The translations under genes were made by a program, and so were the position numbers. The notes beneath the pieces were generated by a model. It saw nothing but the letters and a program-made list of their open reading frames with translations. It was not told the DNA's origin and did no database searches. Shown here one piece after another: positions 9,698 through 26,032 of a stretch of 64,000 bases of DNA (position 1 is the stretch's first letter; the number at the start of each line of letters is the position of its first letter). This DNA is from Pseudomonas sp. WJP1 (GTDB taxonomy: Bacteria > Pseudomonadota > Gammaproteobacteria > Pseudomonadales > Pseudomonadaceae), in NCBI RefSeq assembly GCF_028471945.1, contig NZ_CP110128.1, forward strand, positions 3,584,501 through 3,648,500. Reading direction: 5' to 3'.

Positions 9698-10072
9698 TCG
9701 CATACGCCTCAATAGGAATTGTTGTTGTCGATTGGGCAGGGCCGACTATGAGCCAGATGAATCGCGAGAATCGGGATGACCTTTTGTGATTGGCGCAGCA
9801 GGAAACAGCTGTTGCGTCCGTCAAAAAAAAACTACATATCGCCTCGCTTGCAAACCACAATGGCCCGATGCCAGAAGTGCAACAAGTGACTTTTTTTCGA
9901 GACATGTAAATCATATGAACGCGTTGACGCAGAGCCGTTGGCCGGCTCAGCGCAGCATGTACGAGGGGGTTTGAATTGCGGGGACGTTCTGTGGCATGGA
10001 GATTGCCTTGGACCAATAAAGCAGTACTGATCAATCTATTTTTGAGCAGAATCCACCCAAAAGGGGCATGCC
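9698..10072. promoter_or_regulatory. Regulatory gap upstream of the betaine-type transporter operon
   Basis: A 375-bp region without a convincing gene. It must hold the promoter of the minus-strand transporter operon. At 9924-9932 it contains TTGACGCAG, a single copy of the element found duplicated upstream of other units in this window, in the same orientation relative to the downstream gene. A string of A residues lies at 9824-9831. Confidence 0.4.
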
Positions 10073-10344: not shown

Positions 10345-11931
10345 CTATTGACCGCTTCTGATCATGTCGGCGGCCTTTTCTCCAATCATGATGCACACCG
10401 AGTTAGGGTTACCTGAAATCAGTGTGGGCATGATCGATGCGTCAGCAACGCGCAGCCCTTCCATGCCATGCACCTTGAGATCCGGCGCGACAACCGAGTG
10501 CTCATCCACTCCCATGCGGCAGGTGCCTGAGGGGTGCAGCGCCGCGTGGGCTTCTTCGTGGCAGAACTTTTTCATCGCTTCTCGAGTACTGACGGCCGCG
10601 CACGGTACATGACGCCTTGCGAGGTAGGGTTTGAACGCGGCCTGGGACATGATTTCCTCACCCACCAGGCAACCATCCACCAGGCTTTCAATGTCATACG
10701 GATCGCTGAAGTAGTTGGGCACGATGCGCGGTGGCGACATCGGGTCGGCTGAATACAGTTCGACATAGCCCCTGGACCTTGGACGGATCTGCCCCAGATT
10801 CAAGGTACAGCCATTGCCCCCGGGAACCGAGTCGACGCCCTCTTCGATGCCCGCGCCAACGACCATGAAGTACTGGATATCGGGATTGGTTGCCGCCTTG
10901 TCTCCCCACCAGAAGGCACCGCCCTCGATCAGGTTGGACGCCGCCGGGCCTTGCCTGAACAGGGCGTACTGCAAACCCGCCAGCATTTTCCAATGCAGCT
11001 TCTTGTACTTGTCGTAGCTGTGGGGCCCCGTCAGCTCATACACCAATGACACTTCGATATGGTCCTGAAGGTTCTGACCCACGCCGGGCGAGTCCTTGAT
11101 CACCTTGATGCCATGCCTTTGAAGCTGTGCGGCCGGGCCGATCCCCGACAACATCAACAAGCGCGGTGAGTTGATGGCACCGGCCGATAACACGATCTCC
11201 TTGTCGGCGTGCATGATCTGACGCACCCCGTTCTCGATGTATTCAACGCCGATCGCTTTGTTGCCCTGGGTCAGGATACGGATCACGCGGCATCCGGTTT
11301 TCACCGTCAGGTTCTTGCGTGATTTGGCGGGCGCCAGATAGGCCACTGCCGCACTGCTTCGAAAGCCGTTTTTCGCGGTGATTTGATACAGCCCGCAGCC
11401 CTGCGGTGTGCCTGAGTTGAAGTCCTCGTTGTACGGCAAACCGTACTGCTGGCAAGCGTGCAGCCAAACCTTGGTCAGTGGATGGATATTGATCGGGTCA
11501 GACACCCCCAGCGGGCCACCGACGCCATGAACGTCGTTGCAGAAACGCTCGTTATCCTCGGCTTTTTTGAAATAGGGCAATACGTCCTTGTAAGACCAGC
11601 CCGTAGCGCCCTGCTGCGCCCAACCGTCGTAATCGGCGGGTACGCCGCGAATATAAATCATCGCATTGACCGAACTCCCGCCCCCCAGCACGCTGGCCTG
11701 GACCATGGTCGGCGTTTCGCAACGGCGTTGATCTTGCGTGGGCTCCCACGCATAGCGCTTGAGCAGCGGACCTTGCGCCGTTTTGTAATAGGCGCCTGGA
11801 ATATGGATGTAGGGATTGCGATCACGCGGCCCCTCTTCAAAAAGAACAACCGACGCAGACTTGTCTTCGCTGAGTCTCGATGCCACTGTGCAGCCTGTCG
11901 AGCCGCCTCCGATTACGATGAAATCCACCAT
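10345..11931 (-). CDS. GMC oxidoreductase (alcohol/glycoside dehydrogenase type)
   Basis: A 528-residue FAD enzyme. The FAD motif is VIGGGSTG near residue 6, the signature is SVLGGGSSVNAMIYIRG, and the catalytic histidine is in HAALHPSGTCRMG with the partner asparagine in SGNPNSVC. It has the same length as, and is clearly paralogous to, the GMC enzyme at 22894-24480, sharing runs such as HWK.AGLQYALFR.GP and VPGGNGCTLN. It is the last gene of a minus-strand unit with a Gfo/Idh/MocA dehydrogenase, a GH3 protein and an epimerase-like protein, 66 bp after the latter. That company favours a sugar, polyol or glycoside as substrate rather than choline. Confidence 0.87.
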   Translation of the reverse strand: MVDFIVIGGGSTGCTVASRLSEDKSASVVLFEEGPRDRNPYIHIPGAYYKTAQGPLLKRYAWEPTQDQRRCETPTMVQASVLGGGSSVNAMIYIRGVPADYDGWAQQGATGWSYKDVLPYFKKAEDNERFCNDVHGVGGPLGVSDPINIHPLTKVWLHACQQYGLPYNEDFNSGTPQGCGLYQITAKNGFRSSAAVAYLAPAKSRKNLTVKTGCRVIRILTQGNKAIGVEYIENGVRQIMHADKEIVLSAGAINSPRLLMLSGIGPAAQLQRHGIKVIKDSPGVGQNLQDHIEVSLVYELTGPHSYDKYKKLHWKMLAGLQYALFRQGPAASNLIEGGAFWWGDKAATNPDIQYFMVVGAGIEEGVDSVPGGNGCTLNLGQIRPRSRGYVELYSADPMSPPRIVPNYFSDPYDIESLVDGCLVGEEIMSQAAFKPYLARRHVPCAAVSTREAMKKFCHEEAHAALHPSGTCRMGVDEHSVVAPDLKVHGMEGLRVADASIMPTLISGNPNSVCIMIGEKAADMIRSGQ

Positions 11932-11997: not shown

Positions 11998-12882
11998 TTA
12001 TCGGCCAACAAGGCGGCTCAGAAGCGCCTTCAGGTCTTTCGCGACCTCATAGCTGTTTTGTTGCTGTTGTTTTTTACAAAACAACTCACAACTCCACCAA
12101 CCGTCGTAACCGGTGGCCTTCACTGCAGCCGTCCACTCGGCGAGGTTCAATACTCCGTCCCCTGTCGGGACATCGCGCAGTACTTCTTCATTGGGAATAC
12201 CGCCAGCAAAAGGCAACGAGTCGCACACATGCACGCCGTAGATAACCTCGGCGTTGATGCGTGCGATGTCTTCGGGCTTGACGCCAGACGTAAAGCAATG
12301 CCAGTAATCGATCACCATTTTGACGTTGTGGCGCTCGGTGCGATCAATCAGTTGCAGTTGATGTTCCAGTGTATTCAACGGGGTCCATGACAAGGCTTCG
12401 AGATAAAGAAGGACATCGTATTGTTGTGCCAGGTCTGCCAGCGCCGCCAGATTCCTCGCCGTCAGTGCATATTGCTCGAACTCGTCCAGCCCCAGTAATC
12501 CGCTGTAGTGATCGCTCGCGCCGCGCTGCCGGTAATCGATCACGGCCTGGACATTGATGGGCCCGGTGAGCACTTGGACACCTTTTGCGCCGACCAGATT
12601 GGCTAGTTGAAACAACCGTTGAGCTTCTTTGAGCATGTCATCGCGCTCGGTGCCCTGGCGTTCGATATCCCTCAGGTAGCCGATCCCCGTGACAGGGATA
12701 TCCTTGAGCAAGGCTTTGAGTTCCGCCTCCGAGTAGCCGGCCTGCAACCAGGCCTCCAGTTTGCCGCTGTAGATCTCCAGCGCATCGAAACCGACAGTTC
12801 TGGCAATGTCGATGTCCATCGCCAGTGTCGAATGTTTTGCGACTGTGGAATGCAAGGCCAGGATGTTTTTTTGAGTGGTCAT
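11998..12882 (-). CDS. Sugar phosphate isomerase/epimerase-like TIM-barrel protein
   Basis: A 294-residue protein of the xylose-isomerase-like/AP-endonuclease-2 superfamily (IolE, IolI, tagatose epimerase relatives). The expected metal-binding residues can be placed: E in LYLEALSW, D and H in MVIDYWHCF, H in YGVHVCD and E in WWSCELF. Such proteins isomerise or dehydrate keto-sugars and inositol derivatives, and some act on 3-keto-glycosides. It lies between the GH3 gene (50 bp) and the GMC gene (66 bp) on the same strand. A TGCGTC-type direct repeat sits 75-103 bp upstream of its ATG, inside the end of the GH3 gene, so it may also have its own promoter. Confidence 0.82.
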   Translation of the reverse strand: MTTQKNILALHSTVAKHSTLAMDIDIARTVGFDALEIYSGKLEAWLQAGYSEAELKALLKDIPVTGIGYLRDIERQGTERDDMLKEAQRLFQLANLVGAKGVQVLTGPINVQAVIDYRQRGASDHYSGLLGLDEFEQYALTARNLAALADLAQQYDVLLYLEALSWTPLNTLEHQLQLIDRTERHNVKMVIDYWHCFTSGVKPEDIARINAEVIYGVHVCDSLPFAGGIPNEEVLRDVPTGDGVLNLAEWTAAVKATGYDGWWSCELFCKKQQQQNSYEVAKDLKALLSRLVGR

Positions 12883-12932: not shown

Positions 12933-14012
12933 TTATTTCGCACTTGCAGGAAATGCGGCGCAATCTGACGCAGTTGCTGCGTCAGGTATCGACAGCGCGC
13001 AATTGGCACCAGCGGCCGCCAGTTCACGCACCCGTGTGGCAGCCCCCAACAGCACCTCACGCTCCAGAACACCGTCCTGAACCGCCGTCACGATAGCCTC
13101 GGCGATAGCGTCCAGGCCCGAATCGCTGGACACGAGCAACAGATGTGCCCCAGCCGCCAGCGAAGCGACTGCGGTGTCCGTGAGGGAGTTACCCCTGAGA
13201 ATGGACACCGCATCAAGGTCATCAGAGATGATCAATCCTTCGAATCCGAGGGTGTAACGCAGCACCGCGATGACTTTGGACGAGGTTGAGGCCGAATGAT
13301 CAGGGTCGATTGCCGGAAAAACGGCAGGCCCTGGCATGACTGCCTTCACACCGGTTGCGATGACTTCCTTGAATACTTCGAGGTTGTCATGAAGCAATTC
13401 AAGCGGCCCTGGAACCGAGGCTTCGGCAATTGCCGGATCCTGCTCGGTGACGTAATGACCGGGGAAGTGTTTAGCCGTTGCGATGACACCCGCGCGTTGC
13501 ACCCCTCGAATAAAGGCACAGGATATGCGACTGACTTCAACGGGGTCGGCGCCTAGATGCCGGTTGTGCAACCATGGATTGGCCCCCGTCACTACATCGA
13601 CGATCGGCGCCAGGAATAGATTGACTCCGAGGCTGCGCGCCACTCTGGCCATCTCGAAACAGCGCTGTTCGATGTCCTGCGAACCAAGATGCTTGAGTTG
13701 CTCTCTCGATGCGACGGCCGGGACCAGTTGGTGAAGGCGTTGGATACCTGCGAGCTCTTGATCCACGGCGATCAACACCGGTGAACCGGCTAATGACGTG
13801 GCTTCTCGCGCGATATCGATAAAATCGGTGGGTGATTCGACGCTCTTGCGCGCCGCGCTCATGTCTCGGCCGACGTACTCCTCCCGGGTCTCGCCCAACA
13901 AAATGGAAACGCCGCCGCGGCTCAAACAACGACGGACATTGTCGTCCAGTGTCAGATCACCGAACGCGGGAAGCAGGACCGAATACGCAGCTCTAAGCAG
14001 TTCACTTGACAT
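12933..14012 (-). CDS. Glycoside hydrolase family 3 N-terminal-domain protein (NagZ-like fold), atypical active site
   Basis: A 359-residue protein made of the GH3 TIM barrel only, like NagZ. The substrate-binding motif KHFPGH is at 181-186 and the nucleophile region ISDDLD at 262-267. In NagZ enzymes the loop after KHFPGHG carries a D-S-H triplet whose histidine is the acid/base; here the loop reads GHYVTEQDPA, so the histidine position is alanine. There is no C-terminal GH3 domain to supply a replacement. No signal peptide is seen, so the protein is probably cytosolic. The gene sits between a Gfo/Idh/MocA dehydrogenase and an epimerase-like protein, suggesting work on an oxidised glycoside rather than on peptidoglycan fragments. 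Confidence 0.78.
   Translation of the reverse strand: MSSELLRAAYSVLLPAFGDLTLDDNVRRCLSRGGVSILLGETREEYVGRDMSAARKSVESPTDFIDIAREATSLAGSPVLIAVDQELAGIQRLHQLVPAVASREQLKHLGSQDIEQRCFEMARVARSLGVNLFLAPIVDVVTGANPWLHNRHLGADPVEVSRISCAFIRGVQRAGVIATAKHFPGHYVTEQDPAIAEASVPGPLELLHDNLEVFKEVIATGVKAVMPGPAVFPAIDPDHSASTSSKVIAVLRYTLGFEGLIISDDLDAVSILRGNSLTDTAVASLAAGAHLLLVSSDSGLDAIAEAIVTAVQDGVLEREVLLGAATRVRELAAAGANCALSIPDAATASDCAAFPASAK
12957..12985 (+). promoter_or_regulatory. Candidate operator: GGCGCAATCTGACGCA direct repeat plus inverted third copy
   Basis: GGCGCA-ATCT-GACGCA (12957-12972) repeats with a 10-bp period. CTGACGCAG (12965-12973) is also mirrored perfectly by CTGCGTCAG (12977-12985). It lies inside the last codons of the GH3 gene, 75 bp upstream of the epimerase-like gene. 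The same 16-mer, with one change, occurs at 26006. Confidence 0.5.
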
Positions 14013-14106
14013 GGTTTTTTCTCAACAAACGCGAGTGCTGGACAGAGACGCCCGGCCATTCAGGCCAAGGTCTCAAATATTGTGATCGCCTCCTGAAGGA
14101 AACGAT

Positions 14107-15276
14107 TTACTGTTCGGGAAAAGGCACCCAGGCACGCCGCTCGCTGGACTCGACACAGGCCTGGGATAACACCACCCCCCGCACGCCCTCATGTATATCC
14201 GGTAACGGGACGGTGGTCGCCGTGCGCCACTGCGTTCCGGCCTCGAGGGCTTCGGCGAAATCGGCATACAGAACGGCCAGCGCCTCCAGATAGCCTTCGG
14301 TGTTTCCCGCTGGCAAGCTGGTAAAGGTCAGCGTCTGCGCCTTATTGTCGCTTTGGCCACGGCGGTAGAGACGGTCGGCGCCGTCAATGGGCGTGAACAG
14401 AAGCGTTTCTGGTGATTCCTGACACCACTCGACCGAGGCTTTGCTGCCGACGATCTTGAAACGCAATCCGTTGCGATGACCAGGCGCCGCGAAACTGGCC
14501 CATAACAAGCCATCGACGCCGCCCTCGAATTCAAGCTGCACCACACAGGTGTCGTCCAGCCCCCAACCTGGCACAACCGTGCTCAACTTGGCATTCAGGC
14601 TGGTGCAACGCCGCCCGGACAGGAATTCAAGCATGTTGAAGGCGTGTGTTCCGACATCTCCCAGCGCGCCGGTCGGCCCGGCCTTTTCAGGGTCGCCACG
14701 CCAGGCCAGGCTTTTGCTCAACCCATCGACACCGGGTGCCAACCATTCCAAAAGATACTCGACGTACATGAACCGGACTTCACCCAGCTCCCCGGCCTGG
14801 ATACGGCTACGGGCGTCCCTGACCATGGGATAGCCCTGATAGGTGTAAGTCACTGCGAAAAAAGTATTGTGCCGCTCGGCAATGCTGGCCAACGCGTAGG
14901 CTTCTTGCGGACTATTGACCAACGGCTTGTCGCAGATCACCGGGATTCCCGCCCGCAAAAATAGCTGGCACGGTTCAAAGTGCAGGTGATTGGGCGTCAC
15001 GATGACGACGGCATCAATCGGATCGGGGCGACACGACTCGGTAGCTGCCATGTCCTCGAATGACAGGTAAATTCGCTCTTGCGCCAGATGGAGTGCCGCC
15101 CCGGCCTCACGGCATTTGTCCGCATCCGAAGAGAAGGCGCCGGCGACAATATCGAAGCGGTTGCACAGGCGCATGGCGGCGCGATGATAGCTGGCAAAAT
15201 AGGCGCCCTGCCCGCCACCCACCATCCCGACCTTGAAACGTCGTTGTCCTGGAATGTCGCCTGTTAACCTGGCCAT
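14107..15276 (-). CDS. Gfo/Idh/MocA-family NAD(P)-dependent sugar dehydrogenase
   Basis: A 389-residue oxidoreductase. The N-terminal Rossmann fold has GMVGGGQGA near residue 17, the family lysine lies in CDKPLVNS, and the catalytic D...H pair is in GDVGTHAFNML. Family members oxidise or reduce sugars, inositols and amino-sugars, often at C3. The start ATG has GAGGG nine bases upstream. It leads the minus-strand unit GH3 - epimerase - GMC and faces the XRE-type regulator across a 409-bp gap. A single TGACGCAG element lies 97 bp upstream. Direction of the reaction and substrate are unknown. Confidence 0.85.
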   Translation of the reverse strand: MARLTGDIPGQRRFKVGMVGGGQGAYFASYHRAAMRLCNRFDIVAGAFSSDADKCREAGAALHLAQERIYLSFEDMAATESCRPDPIDAVVIVTPNHLHFEPCQLFLRAGIPVICDKPLVNSPQEAYALASIAERHNTFFAVTYTYQGYPMVRDARSRIQAGELGEVRFMYVEYLLEWLAPGVDGLSKSLAWRGDPEKAGPTGALGDVGTHAFNMLEFLSGRRCTSLNAKLSTVVPGWGLDDTCVVQLEFEGGVDGLLWASFAAPGHRNGLRFKIVGSKASVEWCQESPETLLFTPIDGADRLYRRGQSDNKAQTLTFTSLPAGNTEGYLEALAVLYADFAEALEAGTQWRTATTVPLPDIHEGVRGVVLSQACVESSERRAWVPFPEQ

Positions 15277-15685
15277 GGTTCAAATCCCTCAATGAATGGC
15301 ACGTACACACGTTCGCCACCTGGAGTATCAAGGGCGATGCGGCGTTTCTCCATTTCGCACCACGTCAATACATGACGCAGACCGCAGCACCCGAAATGAA
15401 TAAACTTTGCAGGACCATTGGGTTCGGGGAGTTGCATGATGTTACCCGGCAAAGCCAATCTGTTACCTGCCGGGGCGGCGAGTAACCTTCGGCCGTTGGA
15501 GCTAGACTGATAAAGATCGATGGCTGGCCAGATTTCGAATATTTTCACACGGCATGGAACAAGCTTGAGATTAAATACAATATGATCAAGTGTTTACGGC
15601 GCAATGAAGTGACTTAACGGTTATTCAAGAATAACTACCATATAACCTCGTCGCTCAAAAACCCTTAGTTAAATCGAGACAGACT
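15277..15685. promoter_or_regulatory. Divergent promoter region between the sugar dehydrogenase unit and the XRE regulator
   Basis: A 409-bp gap. TGACGCAG at 15373-15380 is a single copy of the element repeated elsewhere in the window, in the same orientation to the downstream gene and at a similar distance from its start codon. The 15540-15660 part is AT-rich and should carry the regulator promoter. A 94-codon minus-strand frame in the gap does not look coding. Confidence 0.4.
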
Positions 15686-16579
15686 ATGCCCCGCCCAGGA
15701 GACCCCGTCACCATGCCATTGACAGCTGCCACCTCGCACCCTGAGCGACAACAGGTTCGCAGCGACTTGCAAGCCAACGTGCAAAAAAACCTGAGTACGC
15801 TGGTCGAGTCCTGCCGTTCAGTGGCGGACATGTGCCGCAAAGTCGATGTCAATCGCCAGCAGTTCAACAAGTACCTGGTGGGCCAGCACGTTCCTTCGCA
15901 GAAGATTCTTCAGAAAATAGGCCGTTATTTCATGATGGAAGCCGAAGATCTTTTTCGGCCACCCGCCGAGTTCAAGAAATTCTATGAAGGGTATGAAAAC
16001 GAATTGCCGACGGACTTGCGTGCCTCGGCGCAATTCAATCATTTTTTGCCTTTGGCAAAACAGTCGGCTGACTTACTCGAAGACTACCTGGGCGTCTATT
16101 ACCGCTATCACAACTCTTCGATCTACAAAGGCAGAATCCTGCGCTCGGTTACTTGCCTGTATCGAGCCGATTCGATGGTCCAGTACGTCACGGTAGAACG
16201 TTTCCCGCTGCTCGATGGCAGCGGCAAGATTGGCTACTCGTTCACCTATCACGGTTTTTGCCTGCTGCTGGGGGACCGCCTGTTCATGGTGGATTTCGAA
16301 GGCAAACAACGCAACGAGATGACGTTTTCGATTCTGACCCCACAGCATCGCCGACCGATCCGCTTCCTCTATGGATTGGTCACCGGTGTGGCGTCGTCCT
16401 CCTTCCGCCAGCCCTTTTCAACCCGCATGGCACTGGGGCTGGTAGACAAAGGCAAGATCGGCAAACACCATCTGCGCAATGCAACCGCCGTGCTGCCCAG
16501 CGATCAATCCTTGCCGCTGGAGGTGCGTGAGTACATGACCGGCGACAACGCCACTATCGTGTGGGGCGGTCAGGCCTGA
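15686..16579 (+). CDS. XRE-type helix-turn-helix transcriptional regulator
   Basis: A 297-residue protein. Residues 35-90 form a helix-turn-helix of the Cro/C1 type (SVADMCRKVDVNRQQFNKYLVGQHVPS, the recognition helix around NRQQFNKYL). The remaining 200 residues are an unrecognised domain that could bind a ligand. ATG at 15686 is used; an in-frame ATG at 15713 with AGGAG 11 bases upstream is an alternative. It is divergent from the sugar dehydrogenase unit and convergent with tatA, so it is the local candidate regulator of this region and possibly of the TGCGTC-type repeats. Confidence 0.75.
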   Translation: MPRPGDPVTMPLTAATSHPERQQVRSDLQANVQKNLSTLVESCRSVADMCRKVDVNRQQFNKYLVGQHVPSQKILQKIGRYFMMEAEDLFRPPAEFKKFYEGYENELPTDLRASAQFNHFLPLAKQSADLLEDYLGVYYRYHNSSIYKGRILRSVTCLYRADSMVQYVTVERFPLLDGSGKIGYSFTYHGFCLLLGDRLFMVDFEGKQRNEMTFSILTPQHRRPIRFLYGLVTGVASSSFRQPFSTRMALGLVDKGKIGKHHLRNATAVLPSDQSLPLEVREYMTGDNATIVWGGQA

Positions 16580-16599
16580 GGCGGTCCAAAGACCACCTC
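16578..16599. terminator. Hairpin overlapping two convergent stop codons
   Basis: GAGGCGGTC (16578-16586) pairs with GACCACCTC (16591-16599) over nine positions with one mismatch and a four-base loop. It overlaps the TGA of the XRE gene and the TGA of tatA, which converge here. No T tract is present, so it may act only as a weak barrier or 3-prime-end stabiliser. Confidence 0.35.
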
Positions 16600-16834
16600 A
16601 TCGATGCTCAGACCCAGTGACAGTGCCGCCGGTGATCGGCGGCAGCTCAACGGCGGCGCTAACTTGCTGGGCTTGCGAATGTTGCGCACCTTTGTCGTCG
16701 TCATTCATGGCGTTGCGAAAACCCTTGATGGATTCACCGACATCGCTTCCCAGGTTTTTCAGCTTCTTCGTGCCAAAGACCAGCACAACCACCAACAGAA
16801 CAACGATCCAGTGTTTCCAGTCGAAAATACCCAT
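16598..16834 (-). CDS. Twin-arginine translocase subunit TatA/TatE-like, orphan copy
   Basis: A 78-residue protein with the TatA layout: a short N-terminal transmembrane helix ([13 protein letters not shown]), the FG hinge, then an amphipathic helix ([22 protein letters not shown]) and a loose polar tail. TatA multimers form the pore element of the Tat export system in the inner membrane. No tatB or tatC is nearby. The gene follows the two-domain ThDP enzyme by 26 bp with a GAGAGGAA ribosome site, so the two form one unit. Across the divergent region lies a transporter whose binding protein has a Tat signal, which suggests a dedicated or extra TatA for that cargo. Confidence 0.9.
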
Positions 16835-16860
16835 AGCGTGATTCCTCTCGCAAGATTTGA

Positions 16861-18015
16861 TTAATTACCTCGCGTGCCGCGCGCAGTAATGACTTCTACC
16901 AACGACGGGCCTTTGCTGTTTAGCGCCTTGATAAACGCTGGATTGAGCTGCGAAGCATGTTCGACCCGCCAGGCTTCAAGACCAAAGTTCCTGGCAATTG
17001 CGGCAAAGTCCGGTGAGTAAGGTTTGCCGTCCGGCAGGTTGAATTCACCCGCCTGGTGCTGTTCGACCAATGTGCTTTGCACATCACTCAAGGTCGCATC
17101 CCCGCTGTTGTTGAACACAAGAAACACCACGGGCAGACTGTGCATTACGCAAACCGCCATCTCCTGCAACGACTGCAGGAAATCCCCATCCCCCACGACA
17201 CACACCACCTGGCGCGCCGGCATCGCGAGCTTTGCACCGATGGCCGCTGGCACCGCCCAACCCAGCGTCTCAGCACTGGCGGCGCACAAGTAACTGCCGG
17301 ATTGATCGAAAGGAAACATATCGCCGACCAGTACCTGGATACTCCCCTCGCCGATCACCACAATCGCATCCCTCTCCAGGGCTGCCCCCCATTGCGACGC
17401 ACGGTCATTTGCGACCTGAGGAAGAGCCGCGCCACACAGTTTGCTGACTGACGGTTCCATCATACGGGCGTCTGTCCGTTGCAATTGGGCATTAGCGCGC
17501 AAGGTGGCCGGGGGCAGGATTGCCTCAATCGAGGTGTTCTGAACAACCGCCGGGATATCCAGGCTGACCGGGCCGGCACGACCGCTGAGCATCAGGTCGA
17601 ACGCCTGACGCAGGATTTGCGGCAACTGTTCAATCGACGAAACGTCCACATGCTGCTTGGTGATGCCCGTTGTCGTAGAGTCGTGCCGCTCGCTGTCACT
17701 GCTACTGATGACCAGCATGGCCGACGAGTCCGCCAACGCGGTCGCGATCCCGCCCAGCGCTTTCGAAATGCCCAATGGCACAGGAAGCACGACAGCCATG
17801 GGGCGTCCACAGGCGCGATAATAACCATCGGCAAGATGGACTGCACTGTGCTCCTGTATGACTTGAATGAACGGAATATCCGTACCGGGCATCCGTAACG
17901 CCTCCAGTAACGCCAATGAACCGGCCCCCGGCATCCCTGCCACATAATCGACGCCGTTCGCTTTCAGCGCTTTCGCAACAATCTGGCCACCAGTGAGTTT
18001 CACAGGATACTCCAT
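16861..18015 (-). CDS. Thiamine-diphosphate enzyme lacking the central domain (acetolactate synthase/IolD relative)
   Basis: A 384-residue ThDP enzyme. Residues 5-160 are the pyrimidine-binding domain with the cofactor-activating glutamate E55 in [15 protein letters not shown]. Residues about 215-384 are the pyrophosphate domain with GDGDF at 275-279 and NNS at 302-304, the Mg/ThDP motif. The central domain of about 170 residues found in acetolactate synthase-like enzymes is missing; a linker of about 50 residues replaces it. The N-terminus is close to that of the full-length paralogue at 27017-28804. Sulfopyruvate and phosphonopyruvate decarboxylases also lack this domain, so a 2-keto acid decarboxylase role is possible. 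It is upstream of tatA in one unit. Confidence 0.82.
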
Positions 18016-18122
18016 TCAACAGCCGCAGGTTTCAGGGTGAATGCAACTCGCCCCGTCTCAGACCGCAAGGCGAGTATTCGCCTGGTGCCCTCAGGGCTCA
18101 ATTTCGCACCCATTGCAAAAGA

Positions 18123-18138
18123 GACGCACATTGACGCA
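18123..18138 (+). promoter_or_regulatory. Candidate operator GACGCACATTGACGCA
   Basis: Two GACGCA hexamers repeated directly with a 10-bp period. The site lies 108 bp upstream of the ThDP-enzyme start on the minus strand; read on that strand it is TGCGTC-N4-TGCGTC, the same orientation as at the other target genes. Confidence 0.55.
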
Positions 18139-18214
18139 GTCGATCCCCGCCCTTTCCCGGCTCTTTGGGAACTATCGTTAACAAGTGCGCGCTGCGCCGA
18201 TTAGGTCACTTTGA

Positions 18215-18230
18215 TGCGTCAGAGTGCGTC
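18215..18230 (-). promoter_or_regulatory. Candidate operator, TGCGTCAGAGTGCGTC
   Basis: The same direct repeat as at 18123 but in opposite orientation, so it faces the plus-strand transporter operon starting at 18601. The hexamers TGCGTC start at 18215 and 18225, again 10 bp apart. Confidence 0.55.
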
Positions 18231-18600
18231 GCTTTTATAGGGTCTGCGAAATTGAGTGCTCTGCCCGCCAGGCCAATACTCGATCCATGAAAACAACAAG
18301 CCGAGCCTATCAAGCGCTGGGCGCGACGCTTCAAGCCCTAACCCGGCAAGGTGAAAAAGGCGTCGTGCAATCCAGCCAGGGAAGAGTCAATCGGACCAGT
18401 GGAGGCCCGCGGCGCAATGCTCTCTCTTATGTGCATGCAAGTGCCGCCGCCCTCCCCAGCTGGATGGAAACACTGCTGGCCATAACACTGCCGATGTACA
18501 TGACTGCATACATAAGGACGAGCCCGGCCACACTCGCCGAGCCGGAACCATTGCAAGTTGCTGATCGTTTGCTAACCACCACCCTAGGCAGGAACTCGAA

Positions 18601-19761
18601 ATGAAAAAAGAAAAAGAGACGGGTTATGGACTCACCGGCATCGACCTGGATTCGATTAGCTTGAACAGGCGCACATTTTTGCTGGGGGCTGCCGCATCTG
18701 CCGCGGGGTTGTACCTGGGATCTTTCGCGCCCGGCGCATTTGCCGCCGCAGGCGGACACCTGGAAATTCTTGGCTGGGAAGGAGAAACCGGTGACGCGGA
18801 ACTCGCTGACTGGCGCAAGCAGCGCGGCGTCACTGTGCGGTCAAGCTACGCCAGCAACCAGGACGACATTACCGCTCGTCTGGCGGGCGCCGATCCGGTG
18901 CAGCTTGACTTGACCATGTACGCGCTGGGCTACGAGATCATCTACAAGGAGATGGGGCTGCTCAAGGCCATCGACACATCGAAAATCCCCAATTACTCGG
19001 CCGAAGATACTGTCCCGCTATTCTATAAAGGCAGCCGCTGGTACTGGGATGGCAAGCAGTGGGGCATTCCCCTTCTGTGGGGCATGAACACCATCGTCTA
19101 CAACCCGAAGAACGTCAAAAAGCCCACCGAATACAAAGACCTGCTGGACCCGAAATTGAAGGGGCGGCTGACCTTTGTCGATGACGGTACTTCGAACTGG
19201 TCGCTGATCGCGATTATTGCCGGCTATGGCGACAAGTTCCCCAACCTGACCCGTGCCGAGTTTGACGACGCATTCGAGAAACTCAAACCGTACCGTGACC
19301 AATGCCGAGTCTTCGCGGCCTCATCGGGCGATGCTGTTTCCCTGCTGGTTTCCGGCGAAGTGGACGCGGTTTTTTCGGCGACAGCCAACACGCCGTACGA
19401 GACCCGCAAGCGCGGAATAGAAACGGCCCTGTCGGTGCCCAAGGAAGGCGCGGCCCTCTGGTGCGATGCCTTGTTTGTGCCGAAAACGGCCAAGGACGTG
19501 CCGCTGGCGCTGGAGTTCATCAACAAGACGCTCGAAGCGCAAACACAGGCCAAGATGGCAACCACGATGTTCGCGGGCGTGGTCAACAGCAAAGCCGTGC
19601 CGCTGTTGCCCGAAGAGCTGAGAAACACCTACGACTATGCGAACCTGGACAGCTTTTTCGAGAAATCGAAACTCTACGGTCAGCCACCCCTGAGTTCCGA
19701 CAAGTATGTGACCTATGCTGAATGGATCGATCAGTGGGCAAACTTCAAAGGCTCATTCTAG
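18601..19761 (+). CDS. Polyamine-type ABC transporter substrate-binding protein with Tat signal (PotD-like)
   Basis: A 386-residue binding protein of the PotD/spermidine-putrescine type. The N-terminus is a twin-arginine signal: a polar region, NRRTFLLG around residues 22-29, a hydrophobic stretch and a cleavage site after GAFA. The protein would be exported folded, unusual for a PotD homologue. The mature part begins with HLEILGWEG and shows fold landmarks such as QLDLTMYALGYE and WGIPLLWGMNTIVYN. The ATG has AGGAA eight bases upstream. It starts a four-gene transporter operon and lies opposite an orphan tatA. Polyamines are only one of several ligand types for this family. Confidence 0.87.
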   Translation: MKKEKETGYGLTGIDLDSISLNRRTFLLGAAASAAGLYLGSFAPGAFAAAGGHLEILGWEGETGDAELADWRKQRGVTVRSSYASNQDDITARLAGADPVQLDLTMYALGYEIIYKEMGLLKAIDTSKIPNYSAEDTVPLFYKGSRWYWDGKQWGIPLLWGMNTIVYNPKNVKKPTEYKDLLDPKLKGRLTFVDDGTSNWSLIAIIAGYGDKFPNLTRAEFDDAFEKLKPYRDQCRVFAASSGDAVSLLVSGEVDAVFSATANTPYETRKRGIETALSVPKEGAALWCDALFVPKTAKDVPLALEFINKTLEAQTQAKMATTMFAGVVNSKAVPLLPEELRNTYDYANLDSFFEKSKLYGQPPLSSDKYVTYAEWIDQWANFKGSF

Positions 19762-19922
19762 AGCTGTCGGCTAGCCGGTTTATAGAAACGCCTGTTTGAG
19801 GGGGCTGCACGAGAGAGTGGGTGCTTGCGAGCACGCGCCCCTCTGCTCGACGGCGGCCACAACGTGCACGCGCTCAGCAGAGCGCCCTCGTTATCGAAAC
19901 AAAAAGCAAAGGCACACTCATC

Positions 19923-20858
19923 ATGAACGTAGTCAACAACAGCGAGCCCATCCTCCTGGATGACAGGAATTCGAAGGCGGGCAAGCACGTGAAAATCGAC
20001 AAAAAAACCTTGAGCGGCTACTTACTGGCGTCGCCTCCCCTGCTCTTCCTTATTGTATTTTTCCTCGTTCCATCGCTGCTGCTGCTGGTCGCGAGTTTCT
20101 GGACCGCCAAGACTTTCAGCATGGAGCCCGCCGCGACCCTTGCCAACTACGCCAGAGCCTTGAGCGCCAGCGGATTCTATGACTCGTTATGGATCGCGCT
20201 GCAAAACGGCTTCTGGACCGCCATGCTCTCGACGGTCATCAGCGCGCCTGTCGCCTATTACATTGTCTATCGAACGCGCTCCAACGCCGTCCTCTACCTG
20301 GCCTTGATTTCGTGGTTCTCCAGCTATCTGGTGCGGGTCTATGCCTGGCGCTCGATTTTGGGCACCAACGGCGTCATCAACTCCACGCTGCTGCACCTCG
20401 GTTTGATCGATCAACCCCTGGACTGGCTGGTATTCAGCAAGTTCTCGGTGGTGTTGACCCTTGTGCACATCATGCTGCCGTTCACCCTGCTGCTGCTGGT
20501 GTCTGGCCTGCGCGATATCAAGAAGGACTATCTGGAAGCCGCCGCAGATCTGGGCGCCAGCGGATCCACGATCCTATGGCGAGTGATCATGCCGATGGCG
20601 CACAAAAGCATTGTCAGTTCGTTCATGTTCACCTTCGTCCTCGCCGCCAGTGACTACGTCACGCCCCAAATGCTCGGGGGCAGAGATGCCATGACGACCG
20701 GTCTGGTGATCGCCAACCAGTTCCGCTCGGTGGGTAATTGGCCGCTGGGGGCAGCGATGGCCTACCTGTTGCTGCTGGTATTCATGCTGGTCTACGGGCT
20801 GCTTCTGGGTGTGTTGCGGGCTGCAAACCTGGCACCCGGCAAGCGTTACCACGACTGA
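19923..20858 (+). CDS. Polyamine-type ABC transporter permease (PotB-like)
   Basis: A 311-residue inner-membrane protein with about six transmembrane helices, the first at residues 32-58 (LLASPPLLFLIVFFLVPSLL region). The EAA loop that contacts the ATPase is at DYLEAAADLGASGSTILWRV. The start ATG at 19923 was chosen because the longer frame from 19821 adds 34 arginine- and alanine-rich residues without a membrane or family pattern. It follows the Tat-exported binding protein and precedes the second permease by 28 bp. Confidence 0.88.
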   Translation: MNVVNNSEPILLDDRNSKAGKHVKIDKKTLSGYLLASPPLLFLIVFFLVPSLLLLVASFWTAKTFSMEPAATLANYARALSASGFYDSLWIALQNGFWTAMLSTVISAPVAYYIVYRTRSNAVLYLALISWFSSYLVRVYAWRSILGTNGVINSTLLHLGLIDQPLDWLVFSKFSVVLTLVHIMLPFTLLLLVSGLRDIKKDYLEAAADLGASGSTILWRVIMPMAHKSIVSSFMFTFVLAASDYVTPQMLGGRDAMTTGLVIANQFRSVGNWPLGAAMAYLLLLVFMLVYGLLLGVLRAANLAPGKRYHD

Positions 20859-20886
20859 TTGCCGCCCATAAAAAAGGTAACTCGCC

Positions 20887-21678
20887 ATGATCAGGCTATT
20901 CACTTACGTTTACATGTTGTTCCTTTACGCACCCATCGCGATCATCGCGCTGTTCAGCTTTCATTCGTCAGCTTCGTTGTCGTTCCCGTTCGAGGGGTTT
21001 TCCACTCAATGGTACGAGGCGCTGTTCAGCAGCTCGGACTTCATGACGGCGCTGACCAACAGTGCAATCGTCGCCGCGGGCTCGGCAATACTCACCACCT
21101 TGCTCGGCACGTTCTCGGCACTGGCGCTCATGCGCATGAAAGGTCGAGTCAAATCCGCCTTTGCCTTCATGAACTTCGCCCCGATCGCCTTGCCCGGTTT
21201 ATTCCTGGGAATCGCGCTGGTGATTTTCTTCTCGTTGATCGGCCTGCCACGCTCGCTGCTCACCGTGATCATTGGCCATACGCTGTTCACTTTTCCGTTT
21301 TTCGTCGAGTCCGTGCGTTCACGCCTGGAGTACTTCGATCTGTCATTCGAAGAAGCGGCTCGTGACCTGGGCGCATCGCCGCTCAAGGCATTCTGGTTGG
21401 TGACGCTGCCAATCATCGGGCCGACGATTGCCGGTGCCGCGATCCTGGCGGTCGCACTTTCGATGGACGAGTTCCTGATCACCGTATTCGTCACCGGCAG
21501 CGACACAACGCTGCCCCTCATGATTCTTTCGATGATGCGCCGCGCCGTCAGCCCAACCATCAATGCCGCCTCGGTATTCATGCTGGTCGTGACCATTGCC
21601 ATCATTGTCATCGCCGGCCTGGTCATGACCCTGCGCCGTCGCCGCCTCGAACTTGAACGCGCAGAAACTGCGGAGTAA
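20887..21678 (+). CDS. Polyamine-type ABC transporter permease (PotC-like)
   Basis: A 263-residue inner-membrane protein with about six transmembrane helices and an EAA loop at LSFEEAARDLGASPLKAFWLVTLP. It pairs with the PotB-like protein to form the channel. The gene is 28 bp after potB-like and 5 bp before the ATPase gene, so the three are translated from one message. Confidence 0.88.
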   Translation: MIRLFTYVYMLFLYAPIAIIALFSFHSSASLSFPFEGFSTQWYEALFSSSDFMTALTNSAIVAAGSAILTTLLGTFSALALMRMKGRVKSAFAFMNFAPIALPGLFLGIALVIFFSLIGLPRSLLTVIIGHTLFTFPFFVESVRSRLEYFDLSFEEAARDLGASPLKAFWLVTLPIIGPTIAGAAILAVALSMDEFLITVFVTGSDTTLPLMILSMMRRAVSPTINAASVFMLVVTIAIIVIAGLVMTLRRRRLELERAETAE

Positions 21679-21683
21679 TCACC

Positions 21684-22763
21684 ATGACCAACAGTATTGA
21701 ACTGACCGGAATATCCAAGAGCTACGGCAACCTGACCGCCCTGGGCAAAGTCGACCTGACCGTAAAGCGCAACGAAATCCTGACATTGCTGGGCCCTAGT
21801 GGTTGTGGCAAAACCACGCTGATGCGCATCATCGCCGGCTTCGAAGAACCCACCACCGGCAAGGTCGTGATCGATGGCAAGGACTCAACGTCCCTGGCGC
21901 CTGAGCACCGTCCGGTCAACATGGTGTTTCAGAAATACGCCCTGTTCCCTCACCTGGACGTCTTCGACAACGTTGCTTTCGGGCTGCGCCTGAAGAAGAA
22001 ACCGAAGGATGAAATCAAGCGTGAAGTGACCAAGGCACTGGAACTGGTGCAGCTGGAAAGCTTCAAGAATCGCTGGATTTCCGAGCTCAGTGGCGGGCAG
22101 GCGCAACGCGTCGCACTGGCCCGGGCGTTGGTGAATCGCCCCGCCGTGCTGCTGCTCGATGAGCCACTGGCTGCGCTGGACCTGAAGATTCGCCACCACA
22201 TGCTCAATGAAATCAAACGGATCCACGAAGAGACATCGACAACGTTCGTGTATGTCACCCATGACCAGGACGAAGCGATGATCCTGTCCGACCGGGTGGT
22301 ATTGCTGAACAAGGGTGGCATCGAGCAGATCGGTGGGCCGCAGGAGATGTATTGGTCGCCGCGTACGTTGTTCGCCGCGAAGTTTTTTGGCGATACCAAC
22401 ATCGTCAATGGCACGTACGGGCTTGGCGATACCAGCAACGGTTATGTTGATCTGCCGTTTGGTCGATACGCGCATACGGCCAAGAACAGCCTGGGTGCCG
22501 GCCCCGTCAACGTGTCGATCCGTCCGGAAACCATCGGTCTGCAGCCCGCTCAAGGCGCTGCGATGGCCGACGGGGCCTTTGTCGGCAAAGTGAAAGACAC
22601 TTCGTTCATCGGTAATCGGGTTATTTATCGAGTAGCTGTGGCTGGCGGAACCATCGATCTTAAATGCCAGCAGTTGCCCACCCCCGGCAGCCACGCGCTA
22701 CCACCTGGATCGGATGTGGCGCTCACCTGTAAACCAGACAGCTTTGTGGTGATACCGGCCTGA
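21684..22763 (+). CDS. Polyamine-type ABC transporter ATP-binding protein (PotA-like)
   Basis: A 359-residue ATPase. Walker A is GPSGCGKTT (37-45), the Q-loop is in VFQKYALFPHL, the signature is ELSGGQAQR, Walker B is LLLDEPLAALD and the switch histidine is in VTHDQDEA. A C-terminal TOBE-type domain follows from about residue 285. It is the last gene of the transporter operon; a strong intrinsic terminator lies 61 bp after its stop. Confidence 0.9.
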   Translation: MTNSIELTGISKSYGNLTALGKVDLTVKRNEILTLLGPSGCGKTTLMRIIAGFEEPTTGKVVIDGKDSTSLAPEHRPVNMVFQKYALFPHLDVFDNVAFGLRLKKKPKDEIKREVTKALELVQLESFKNRWISELSGGQAQRVALARALVNRPAVLLLDEPLAALDLKIRHHMLNEIKRIHEETSTTFVYVTHDQDEAMILSDRVVLLNKGGIEQIGGPQEMYWSPRTLFAAKFFGDTNIVNGTYGLGDTSNGYVDLPFGRYAHTAKNSLGAGPVNVSIRPETIGLQPAQGAAMADGAFVGKVKDTSFIGNRVIYRVAVAGGTIDLKCQQLPTPGSHALPPGSDVALTCKPDSFVVIPA

Positions 22764-22823
22764 ATGGCAATGCAGTGAACCAGCCCCCCTGCTGACTTCA
22801 GCATGGGGTATGTCAGCAACTTC

Positions 22824-22873
22824 AACGCTGGATCATCAGCTCTTCCCAAAGAGCATGATCCGGCGTTTTTTTT
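22824..22873 (+). terminator. Intrinsic terminator or attenuator between the transporter operon and the GMC gene
   Basis: A long hairpin: AACGC.GGATCAT pairs with ATGATCC.GCGTT, enclosing an inner stem GCTCTT/AAGAGC, and is followed directly by eight T residues (22866-22873). It ends only 20 bp before the ATG of the next gene, so it would either end the transporter operon or limit transcription into the GMC gene. Confidence 0.85.
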
Positions 22874-22893
22874 GATCAGGGCGGAACACAACA

Positions 22894-24480
22894 ATGGTCG
22901 ACTATATCGTGGTCGGGGGCGGGTCAGCCGGGTGCGTCATTGCGGCACGTCTCAGCGAAAATACACAGGTTTCAGTCGTTCTCCTCGAAGAGGGGCCAAA
23001 GGACATTCACCCGTTCATTCATCTTCCGGTCGGTTTCTACAAGACCAGCCAGGGCAACCTGGTCGAACGCTATCCCTGGGAGCCACCCGCGGACTATATC
23101 GGCCCCGCCAATCCGACCATGGTCCAGGCGCGGGTTCTTGGCGGCGGCAGTTCGGTCAACGCCATGGTCTACTTGCGCGGGCAACCGGCCGATTACGACA
23201 GCTGGGCAGCGGGTGGTGCTCAGGGCTGGGCCTACAACGACGTCCTGCCCTTCTTCAAGAAATGCGAAACCAACGATCGATTCAGCAATGATGCGCACGG
23301 CACTGATGGTCCGGTCGGCGTCAGTGATCAGCGTTTTACCCACCCTCTGACCAAGCTCTGGCTACAAGCCTGCCAACAAGCCGGGCTGGCCTATAACGCA
23401 GACTTCAACTCGGGGATGCAGGACGGTTGCGGGCTCTATCAAATCAACGCCAGGAACGGTCTGCGATCGAGCACGTCGGTCGCCTACTTGAAGCCTGCGC
23501 GAAAGAGACCCAATCTGACGGTCAAAACCAACTGCCGAGTCTTGCGCATCCTGGTCGAAAATGGCCGCGCAACGGGCGTTGAATACCTTGAAAACAATCA
23601 GCGTCGAGTACTCAGGGCCGAGCGCGAAGTCATTGTCAGTGCCGGGGCGATCAATACCCCGAAACTGTTGATGCTGTCAGGCATTGGCCCAGCCAGTCAC
23701 TTGCGGGACAAAGGCGTCGAGGTAGTACATGACCTGCCTGGCGTCGGACAAAACCTGCAGGATCACATCGAAGTATCACTGATCAACGAACTGCGCCGCC
23801 CATTGAGCTACGACAAGTACAAGAAGCCGCACTGGAAACTCGCAGCCGGGTTGCAATACGCGTTGTTTCGAGAAGGGCCGGTGACTTCCAACGTGGTCGA
23901 AGGTGGCGCGTTCTGGCGTACATCTGTCGCCGAGAACCGTGCGGACGCGCAGTACTGCTTCATGGCGGGTGCCGGTGTAGAGGCTGGCGTGGGTTCCGTT
24001 CCCGGTGGCAACGGTTGCACCCTGAACGTGTGCCAGACCCGCCCGCGCTCGGCCGGTGCAGTGCAACTTCGCAGCGCAGACCCGATGGACTTTCCGTCGA
24101 TTGAACCCAACTACCTGGCCGACCCCTTCGATGTCGAATGCATGATCGAGGCGACCGAATTCGGACGACACATCATGTCCCAGAGTGCGATGGCCGGTCA
24201 TATTCTGCGCGAACACGTCCCCGCCGAACCATTGCGCACCCGTAATGACTATATGAATTTCGTGCGTCGGCAGGCGCATGCTGCGCTGCACCCGGTAGGC
24301 ACCTGTAAAATGGGCACGGACGAGATGGCGGTGGTGGACAATGAGCTGCGGGTACAAGGCATCGAAGGCCTGCGAGTCGCCGACAATTCCATTGCCCCGA
24401 CTTTGTGCTCCAGTAATACCAACGCGCTGGCGATCATGATCGGTGAGAAAGCGGCTGATCACATTCAGCGTGCCTTGTAG
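22894..24480 (+). CDS. GMC oxidoreductase, paralogue of the 10345-11931 enzyme
   Basis: A 528-residue FAD enzyme. The FAD motif is VVGGGSAG (residues 6-13), the signature is ARVLGGGSSVNAMVYLRG, and the catalytic histidine is in [13 protein letters not shown] with the partner asparagine in SSNTNALA. It matches the other 528-residue GMC enzyme along the whole chain. The ribosome site AGGGCGGAA is placed just after a terminator-like hairpin. Position after a polyamine-type transporter suggests oxidation of the imported compound, or of a compound made from it. The electron acceptor (oxygen, quinone or other) cannot be told from sequence. Confidence 0.87.
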   Translation: MVDYIVVGGGSAGCVIAARLSENTQVSVVLLEEGPKDIHPFIHLPVGFYKTSQGNLVERYPWEPPADYIGPANPTMVQARVLGGGSSVNAMVYLRGQPADYDSWAAGGAQGWAYNDVLPFFKKCETNDRFSNDAHGTDGPVGVSDQRFTHPLTKLWLQACQQAGLAYNADFNSGMQDGCGLYQINARNGLRSSTSVAYLKPARKRPNLTVKTNCRVLRILVENGRATGVEYLENNQRRVLRAEREVIVSAGAINTPKLLMLSGIGPASHLRDKGVEVVHDLPGVGQNLQDHIEVSLINELRRPLSYDKYKKPHWKLAAGLQYALFREGPVTSNVVEGGAFWRTSVAENRADAQYCFMAGAGVEAGVGSVPGGNGCTLNVCQTRPRSAGAVQLRSADPMDFPSIEPNYLADPFDVECMIEATEFGRHIMSQSAMAGHILREHVPAEPLRTRNDYMNFVRRQAHAALHPVGTCKMGTDEMAVVDNELRVQGIEGLRVADNSIAPTLCSSNTNALAIMIGEKAADHIQRAL

Positions 24481-24490
24481 GAGCGATGGT

Positions 24491-24516
24491 TAAAAAAAGC
24501 TCCCCGATTGGGGAGC
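24491..24516 (-). terminator. Intrinsic terminator of the HisD-like gene
   Basis: GCTCCCC (24499-24505) and GGGGAGC (24510-24516) form a 7-bp stem with a GATT loop. On the minus strand the stem is followed by a run of seven T residues. It lies about 100 bp past the stop of the minus-strand HisD-like gene and 20 bp past the end of the convergent GMC gene. Confidence 0.85.
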
Positions 24517-24616
24517 CTGAAAGCACTTGGAAAGACGGTGAGAGTGACCAGCAGCACCGAGAAACGACCAGTTTTCTCGCTATCCGCTTACCAGGTGCGG
24601 TGAAGACCCGCAGCCC

Positions 24617-25900
24617 TCAAGCGGACTGTTTGTAGCGACGAATGCGGATGTCCGCCTGCTCCTTGTGCCCGGCGAACCCTTCCATGCCGCACAAGCGCGA
24701 GCAGTATTCGCCAACCAGCACGCTGGCCTCATCCGTGAGGACACGTTGATAAGTGCAGGTCTTGATGAACTTGCCGACCCACAGGCCGCCGGTGTAGCGC
24801 GCGGTCCCGGTGGTGGGCAGGGTGTGGTTGGTGCCGATCACCTTGTCACCGTAGGAGACGTTGGTCCGCTGACCAAGAAACAGTGCTCCGTAGTTGGTCA
24901 TGTGTTCGAGGAAATAGAGCGGGTCGCGGGTCATGACCTGTACGTGTTCGGAGGCAATCCGGTCGGCTTCCTGGACCAGTTCGTCAAGGGTGTCGCACAG
25001 GATGATTTCGCCATAATCACGCCAGGCGACTGACGCCACCGGCGCGGTCGACAGGATGGTCAACTGGCGCTCGATTTCTGCCGGCAGGGTTTCTGCAAGT
25101 GTAGGGCTATTGGTCAGGAATACGGCTGGTGAGTTGACGCCATGCTCAGCCTGGCCAAGCAAGTCGGCAGCAATGATTTCGACATCCGAGCTGTCATCGG
25201 CAATCACCAGGGTTTCAGTCGGGCCGGCGATCAAGTCGATCCCGATTTTGCCAAACAGTTGGCGCTTGGCTTCCGCGACATAGGCATTGCCTGGCCCGAC
25301 GATCATGTCGACCGGCTTGAATGCTTCAGTACCCAACGCAAAAGCGGCAATCGCCTGGACCCCGCCGACACAGTAAATTTCATCGGCACCGGCCAGGTAC
25401 ATCGCGGTCACGATGGCCGGATGAGGCTTGCCATCAAAGGGCGGAGCCGCTGCGACCACGCGTTTCACCCCCGCCACCTTGGCGGTCAGCACGCTCATAT
25501 GCGCCGATGCCAGCAGCGGGTATTTGCCGCCGGGAATGTAGCAACCCACCGAGTTCACTGGAATATTGCGGTGCCCCAGGATCACGCCCGGCAGCGTCTC
25601 GACCTCAACATCGTGCATGGATGCTTTTTGCACTTCGGCAAAACGACGTACTTGCGCCTGGGCGAATTTGATATCGCCGATTTCCTGTTCGGAAAGGCTG
25701 GCGACACAGGCCGCGATTTCTTCGTCGGTCAGGCGGAAGGACGCGGGTGCCCACTGATCAAACTTCCTTGAGTATTCACGAACGGCAGCGTCTCCGTTGT
25801 TGGCGACGTCGGCGATGATTTGCGCAACCGTATCGCGGACTTGAGAAGCAATCTCGGCTTGAGCTTCGACAGGCTTGCTTGTTTTCAGATAACGAATCAT
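24617..25900 (-). CDS. Histidinol dehydrogenase-family protein (HisD/HpsN-like), catabolic paralogue
   Basis: A 427-residue NAD-dependent four-electron alcohol dehydrogenase of the HisD family. The zinc ligands are present (Q and H in GQAEHG, D in [11 protein letters not shown]412 in [10 protein letters not shown]), as is the acid/base pair E-H in SEHVQ. Unlike hisD, it has no histidine-biosynthesis neighbours, and the region [15 protein letters not shown] differs from biosynthetic HisD. Paralogues such as HpsN oxidise sulfopropanediol to sulfolactate. The ATG at 25900 has GGAG eight bases upstream. Its promoter region holds a LacI-type palindrome and a triple GACGCA array, so it appears to belong to both local regulons. 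Substrate is open. Confidence 0.82.
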
Positions 25901-26005
25901 CAATAGGCTCCAGGTGGTTCTTGAGGGCACGCGACATGCCCTCAGCTTGGCGACCATCTTTTCTTAGCCCGCTCTCCCCGGCAATTTCGCAGCGCCTTCA
26001 TTGAT

Positions 26006-26032
26006 GACGCAATCTGACGCAGCACAGACGCA
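26006..26032 (+). promoter_or_regulatory. Candidate operator: three GACGCA hexamers in tandem
   Basis: GACGCA begins at 26006, 26016 and 26027. The first two form GACGCAATCTGACGCA, identical to the element inside the GH3 gene apart from one base. The array is 106 bp upstream of the HisD-like start and is oriented toward it. Confidence 0.6.

Follow-up and report, generated by a model that had tools for sequence, protein, structure and literature searches.

A tandem direct-repeat operator in front of five catabolic units of Pseudomonas sp. WJP1 and its proposed XRE-type regulator

A repeated element in front of five catabolic units

The window analysed here, a stretch of 64,000 nucleotides from Pseudomonas sp. 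WJP1 (contig NZ_CP110128.1, positions 3,584,501 to 3,648,500; positions below count from its first base), contains a catabolic cluster in which five copies of an oriented direct-repeat element, the operators S1 to S5, stand in front of genes for a thiamine diphosphate (ThDP)-dependent enzyme, an ATP-binding cassette (ABC) transporter, a HisD-like dehydrogenase, an epimerase-like protein and a Gfo/Idh/MocA oxidoreductase, and in which an XRE-type protein, the proposed cognate regulator, is also encoded (Table 1). The limits drawn for the five units, and with them the operon membership of the two GMC oxidoreductases listed, are presumptive.

A preliminary description of this DNA had reported the 16-bp repeat TGCGTC-N4-TGCGTC at four places, always in the same orientation toward the downstream gene, and had proposed that it is an operator linking several catabolic units. 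The repeat is present at all four places, exactly at three of them and with one mismatch in S4, and the complete unit proved to be longer, since a third element lies exactly 14 bp past the second hexamer on the reading strand at 5/5 sites, giving TGCGTC-N4-TGCGTC-N14-TGCGAAAT. With up to three mismatches allowed, this composite word occurs five times in the 7,004,124-base genome, in every case within the 13-kb catabolic cluster (window positions 12935-26021), and the same pattern read backwards, used as a control, occurs nowhere; in the window no site has between two and six mismatches, the next-best sites after these five having six. The proposed link is supported by five sites in front of five units, each pointing at its downstream gene. 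Of two single copies also listed, that at 15373 turned out to be a full member (S5), whereas that at 9924 lacks the third element and was dropped. The extra hexamer described just upstream of S3, near 26027, is present and most of the ten sites assigned to the HisD class retain it. What had been missed were the third element, the promoter behind the operator and the wider regulator family.

Behind each operator a promoter-like arrangement was found in which the last T of the operator is also the first base of a -35-like hexamer and the step from this hexamer to a -10-like one is 17 bp at 5/5 window sites, the hexamers having been assigned by position. An operator abutting the -35 at a fixed distance from the -10 is the layout of a class II activator of sigma-70 promoters. 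Promoters under activation are expected to have a poor -35, and the -35-like hexamers here are of this kind. Activators usually have their operators upstream of the -35, and the idea of an activator fits the geometry of these sites. From the end of the operator to the start codon the distance is 86 bp for S1, 76 for S5, 53 for S4 and 84 for S3 (counted from 25900, the likely HisD start, with which the earlier motif-to-start distances of about 75-108 bp also hold); the end of S2 lies 36 bp from a conserved ATG and 349 bp from the start of the substrate-binding protein (SBP) gene. No site of the five is directed toward the regulator's own gene.

The conservation of the sites was assessed in the intergenic region between the ThDP and SBP genes, using 18/23 loci (window included) chosen by their flanking genes; the other five were without a flanking gene, had a late start or failed a length/orientation filter. 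In this gene-anchored and therefore motif-independent alignment, which is the check relied on here, both operators and their -10 elements form islands in divergent DNA. A scripted search of 21 loci from Pseudomonas contigs, including those of P. frederiksbergensis, P. gingeri, P. fluorescens, P. brassicacearum subsp. neoaurantiaca, P. agronomica, P. akapageensis and P. aylmerensis, recovered 78 operator sites at up to three mismatches. Over four site classes conservation was 0.98-1.00 in the core, 0.75-0.83 in the spacers and 0.49-0.74 in the upstream flank, values which are biased in that the sites were picked by their core, S2 sites are absent (replaced by S1) and some S5 sites are counted among S3.

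Close past the -10 hexamer of S2, the stretch ATGAAAACAACAAGCCGAGCCTATCAAGCGCTGGG (18288-18325) is almost unchanged in the 18 gene-anchored loci, after which the DNA diverges and the reading is not kept; within it lies the CA-rich stretch AAAACAACAA, which we take to resemble a Crc/Hfq target. A 105-aa open reading frame (ORF) at 18288-18604 was considered as a conserved protein and rejected, its reading not being kept after MKTTSRAYQALG among these loci and ending after 20 codons in six of them. In another genome (G201), tandem runs of TGCGTCAGGT (contig C9, 108380-108467) and TGCGTCAGGC (contig C65, 21050-21087) are 10-bp satellites that mimic the operator word and have no third element.

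The cluster is dense in genes for GMC oxidoreductases, of which there are four, and has a betaine-type (OpuAC) binding protein accompanied by an ABC ATPase (4042-5673, 7694-9712, 10345-11931, 22894-24480 and 28822-30432). The enzymes scanned miss the NCBIfam cut-offs, with the exception of the HisD domain model, and no substrate is named here.

Table 1. Operators, promoter-like elements and genes of the window
Feature	Position	Strand	Remarks
Operator S1	18101..18138	-	0 mismatches; core exact at 18123-18138; ThDP enzyme unit; kept in gene-anchored alignment of 18 loci
S1 promoter	-35-like TTGAGC 18101-18096; -10-like AATACT 18078-18073	-	
Operator S2	18215..18252	+	0 mismatches; core exact at 18215-18230; pot-type ABC transporter and GMC oxidoreductase unit; kept in gene-anchored alignment
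S2 promoter	-35-like TTGAGT 18252-18257; -10-like AATACT 18275-18280	+	
Operator S3	25984..26021	-	0 mismatches; core exact at 26006-26021; HisD-like dehydrogenase
S3 promoter	-35-like TTGCCG 25984-25979; weak -10-like AAAGAT 25961-25956	-	
Operator S4	12935..12972	-	1 mismatch; core 12957-12972, one mismatch; epimerase-like gene, then GMC oxidoreductase
S4 promoter	-35-like TAACGA 12935-12930; -10-like TACACT 12912-12907	-	
Operator S5	15352..15389	-	2 mismatches; core 15374-15389, two mismatches; Gfo/Idh/MocA oxidoreductase
S5 promoter	-35-like TGGAGA 15352-15347; -10-like GATACT 15329-15324	-	
XRE-type regulator, 297 aa	15686..16579	+	N-terminal helix-turn-helix (helix NRQQFNKYL), C-terminal domain of ~200 aa; proposed cognate protein
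ThDP-dependent enzyme	16861..18015	-	N and C domains only (Pfam PF02775/PF02776); behind S1
Spermidine/putrescine-type ABC SBP	18601..19761	+	first large gene behind S2
Two ABC permeases	19821-20858, 20887-21678	+	S2 unit
ABC ATPase	21684-22763	+	S2 unit
GMC oxidoreductase	22894..24480	+	probably S2 unit
HisD-like dehydrogenase	24617..25900	-	behind S3; ORF open to 25957, likely start 25900
Xylose-isomerase-like TIM barrel (epimerase-like)	11998..12882	-	behind S4
GMC oxidoreductase	10345..11931	-	downstream of epimerase-like gene, probably S4 unit
Gfo/Idh/MocA oxidoreductase	14107..15276	-	behind S5
Glycoside hydrolase family 3-like protein	12933..14012	-	downstream of Gfo/Idh gene, S5 unit; S4 lies within its 3' end
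LacI-family protein	30496-31626	-	

Pairing of the operator with the XRE-type protein

The XRE protein was searched for in 397 genomes of the genus and matched in 180 at E <= 0.001, with 85-100% identity in 19 genomes (its own included), 41% in three and, among the matches listed, about 28-35% in further ones. The operator, searched with no more than one mismatch, was found in 22/397 genomes at 74 places, against 0 for the control in all 397, and these 22 are exactly the genomes whose XRE homologue has 41-100% identity. This stricter search is preferred because at up to three mismatches, where 104/397 genomes have some match, many of them by chance, the backwards control also matches. Each of the three genomes with 41% identity has one or more sites no further than 80 bp from the XRE match; the remaining ones are found at distances of up to about 4.4 kb, and the third element is TGAGAAAT at 5/6 sites. 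In one genome (G243) the hisD unit is found about 218 kb from the regulator gene and still has the operator in front of it, which argues that the pairing does not merely reflect a shared neighbourhood. The pairing of XRE protein and operator is thus strongly supported by sequence comparison, and of the two regulators suggested earlier, the local XRE protein is strongly favoured by its presence in the same 22/397 genomes, whereas an AraC-type protein is disfavoured. In G276 (L165, 6218-6507) a decayed operator with three mismatches stands before part of an epimerase gene (67 residues, 58% identity); the two together look like a duplicate of the S4 unit that has degenerated.

The C-terminal domain of this protein, of about 200 aa, has no useful match in Pfam, NCBIfam or PDB sequences, and neither the window protein nor three relatives gave a cupin match in Pfam at E up to 1. 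No HTH_18 match was found in the XRE protein, its helix-turn-helix (HTH) matches being weak and of Cro/C1 type; no CII family is listed for it in Pfam, a search that did not include direct sequence comparison to CII. The protein does match an HTH chain in the PDB (9k3w, E 6e-4), three relatives (L062, L070 and L072) pass a Pfam HTH cut-off and the window protein aligns with them over the same columns; at the level of the family, the Cro/C1-type HTH that marks XRE regulators is present.

Within this HTH the helix NRxQFN is nearly invariant among the homologues. Where x is Q, base 4 of the first operator word is G or T in 88/89 unique pairs, as is base 4 of the second word in 89/89; with A, G, S or P in place of Q, the first word has A as its base 4 in 23/26 pairs. 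As a lead, residue x may tune the fourth base of the first word.

A wider family with a drifting operator

Distant relatives of the regulator within the genus adjoin either a sodium:alanine symporter and an asparaginase or a family-5 ABC binding protein, as judged from scanned examples of each type and, for the others, by eye from ORF lists. At 12/13 of these distant loci a site lies within five mismatches of the window word, and at the thirteenth (L080, G024) one was found with a pattern fitted to its subfamily, AGCATCA-N4-GCRYCA-N13-YGCGAAATTG with up to three mismatches. This fitted pattern matches 76/149 genomes, namely 73/74 XRE-positive and 3/75 XRE-negative ones; the three latter matches have three mismatches each, and the sole XRE-positive genome missed (G032) has a protein match at E 3.5e-4. 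Of the 73 gene-operator pairs 51 were compared, and in 50 the operator lies within 100 bp of the XRE match and in 50 on the opposite strand.

Homologues occur in 22/194 genomes at the order level and 43/398 at the phylum level, counts in which genomes of the genus are included, as are some short matches to the HTH alone. With a matrix trained on 21 sites of the genus, 18/35 non-genus loci scored above 9.2, the best of 42 base-shuffled loci, and 16 unrelated real loci, with a chance motif masked, reached at most 3.7; in three of the passing loci (L092, L098 and L110) about 1 kb separates site and gene. The loci of family f90, which is outside the class of the window genome and probably belongs to the Alphaproteobacteria, carry a full array of four head-to-tail repeats at 10 bp, for instance AGCGTAAACT AGCGTAATCT AGCATCAAGT CGCGAAATTG (L117/L147), and because of this complete array the N14 gap in the operator of the window most likely conceals a third repeat that has become degenerate. 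Repeat words in the 400 bp next to the gene, compared over 42 loci (seven of them of the genus), are exactly 10 bp apart in 14/20 pairs, pairs up to 45 bp apart being counted; for words lying further off than these 400 bp this holds in 0/8 pairs.

The genes beside the regulator differ between branches. Neighbours at the order level include an aspartase/fumarase-type lyase, an asparaginase and a symporter (L158 scanned, others by eye), and those of families f90 and f94 a family-5 binding protein (L147) and an X-Pro-peptidase-like protein (L146). At one locus outside the class of the window genome (L152, G633), HisD, ThDP, Gfo/Idh, TIM-barrel (epimerase-like) and major facilitator superfamily genes surround the homologous regulator and form a module of the type seen in the window; operator-like sites were seen there upstream of the ThDP and major facilitator superfamily genes. 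In a tree of 48 proteins the window protein groups with the 41% proteins, L151 and L152 in one branch of 12 rows with support 100/100; deeper joins are uncertain owing to long branches in other parts of the tree. At two order-level loci (L095, 2341-2425; L099, 1332-1416) the repeat words next to the regulator gene occur in both orientations, a possible sign of self-regulation there.

Mode of action and comparison with known systems

The repeats are probably the operator of the cluster-encoded XRE-type protein, which would activate the sigma-70 promoters behind them. While the operator itself, its conservation, its promoter geometry and its pairing with the protein are shown above, we infer direct binding, an oligomeric state, activation rather than repression and an inducer. 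Several HTH domains of the XRE protein would bind in head-to-tail order along one face of the helix, the words being spaced 10 bp, or one turn, with positions 1, 2 and 4 strong and position 3 degenerate in the subfamily of the window and all four kept in relatives of another class. As the last repeat runs into the -35 hexamer, the bound protein would stand beside RNA polymerase, where contact is possible, and could recruit it to promoters with a poor -35 (class II activation). The C-terminal domain, assumed to bind the inducer, would sense a pathway metabolite and so switch on together the five units of one catabolic regulon, comprising ABC uptake, GMC oxidoreductases, the ThDP enzyme, the HisD-like and Gfo/Idh dehydrogenases and the epimerase-like protein.

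A number of observations weigh against parts of this account. The short 16-bp form with two mismatches occurs 12 times in the window against 11.3 expected, and its five exact copies in 7.0 Mb, 3/5 of them in the window, are far weaker evidence than the composite word; it was dropped as a search word. The HTH of the window protein itself remains below the Pfam cut-offs (HTH_26, E 0.061), and the 17-bp promoter step is not strict, being 18 at the S2 site of two relatives (L123 and L139). The operator appears to drift or to be absent in part of the family, as 17/35 non-genus homologue loci lie below the matrix threshold and one passes it barely (9.4). Co-occurrence inside the cluster could reflect joint inheritance, although joint inheritance alone would account poorly for the relocated hisD unit and for the distant subfamilies. 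The correlation between helix and operator holds for the first word only, base 4 of the second word being A in 12/26 and G in 14 pairs with a residue other than Q, and because the non-Q rows form one tree branch it may represent one event.

The most serious competing explanation, which we consider unlikely, retains both the XRE protein and its operator and makes the protein a repressor that adjoins the -35 and keeps the units off until an inducer releases it. The XRE-cupin regulators of P. aeruginosa are described as local inhibitors (PMC7901475) and DbuR of P. putida as a repressor (PMC12724383), but these proteins bind palindromes in the core promoter, whereas the window array stops where the -35-like hexamer begins, with the -10 and +1 left free, and is followed by poor -35 hexamers. 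Far less probable is an AraC/XylS-type activator encoded elsewhere as the protein that binds the direct repeats. Such proteins often bind direct repeats overlapping the -35 and the genome has 61 HTH_18 matches, yet 0/61 lie within the window, and the operator tracks the XRE gene through the same 22/397 genomes, with a related pattern beside other pathways too. The LacI-family protein of the window hardly comes into question as the regulator: a further LacI gene lies near the XRE gene in one genome (G307), but LacI proteins typically bind palindromes, and at distant XRE loci the operator is beside the XRE gene, with no LacI seen in ORF lists of which most entries were unscanned. Chance, or shared ancestry of short intergenic DNA of no function, is equally implausible in spite of the chance-level counts of the short form and of loosely matched composite words and the common descent of orthologous clusters, because the third element TGCGAAAT stands at a fixed 14 bp, the controls yielded 0 against five sites in the genome and 22/397 genomes at one mismatch, operators are kept amid diverging DNA and the 10-bp periodicity recurs beside the genes of relatives.

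Beyond the window, we lean slightly toward the view that the activating XRE-type protein represents a widespread and so far undescribed proteobacterial family of one-component activators, with a Cro/C1-type HTH and a new sensor domain of about 200 aa, that would read four phased head-to-tail 10-bp words fused to the -35, its operator being recognisable from Pseudomonas to another class while the target pathway is exchanged (HisD/GMC cluster, asparagine/aspartate genes, peptide-type ABC uptake). The open-access literature searched yielded no description of either the operator or the regulator family, most subscription papers being outside the scope of the search. A repeat spotted by eye would become a regulator-operator pair whose code can be used to predict regulons across many genomes. 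The pair draws attention to a sensor domain that belongs to no known family, and the inducer of the regulon would be a handle on a catabolic cluster of unnamed substrate.

Operators of XRE proteins are usually, though not universally, palindromes bound by dimers, unlike the direct repeats at 10 bp of the window. With the XRE-cupin regulators (ErfA, PsdR, PauR and DbuR), as characterised in passages of PMC7901475 and PMC12724383, the window protein would share a Cro/C1-type HTH, a C-terminal sensing domain and local control of adjoining catabolic genes; unlike them it has no cupin match, and its direct 10-bp repeats lie upstream of the -35, whereas their palindromes, of about 15-25 bp, lie near the core promoter. 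It would be a case of an XRE-type protein combining tandem direct repeats with activation, in contrast to the studied XRE-cupin members of Pseudomonas, which bind palindromes and inhibit.

Activators of the AraC/XylS type use oriented direct repeats that end at the -35, in class II geometry. The direct-repeat operator overlapping the -35 is similar here, a likeness of layout only, since the window protein has weak Cro/C1-type HTH matches and no HTH_18. Phage lambda CII is an HTH protein with a site of the form TTGC-N6-TTGC. Its direct repeats at the -35, as given in passages of PMC3335776, resemble the window operator in being one turn apart and bound by an HTH activator, activation being the predicted mode here; the window differs in having three to four repeats upstream of and into the -35 and a larger protein with a sensor-like domain.

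A last comparison concerns the regulators of asparagine use, which distant members of the family recall by adjoining symporter, asparaginase and aspartase/fumarase-type lyase genes. According to passages of PMC9145765, AnsR of B. subtilis is an XRE-family repressor, and AnsR of C. glutamicum is a GntR protein that binds an inverted repeat, unlike the direct repeats described here. P. aeruginosa, which has a member of the regulator family (P0113), carries the PA2252-ansA genes, for which the passages of PMC7962211 consulted name no regulator and report that asparagine induces a PA2252-lacZ fusion. Such induction would fit a substrate-responsive regulator for the asparagine branch of the family.

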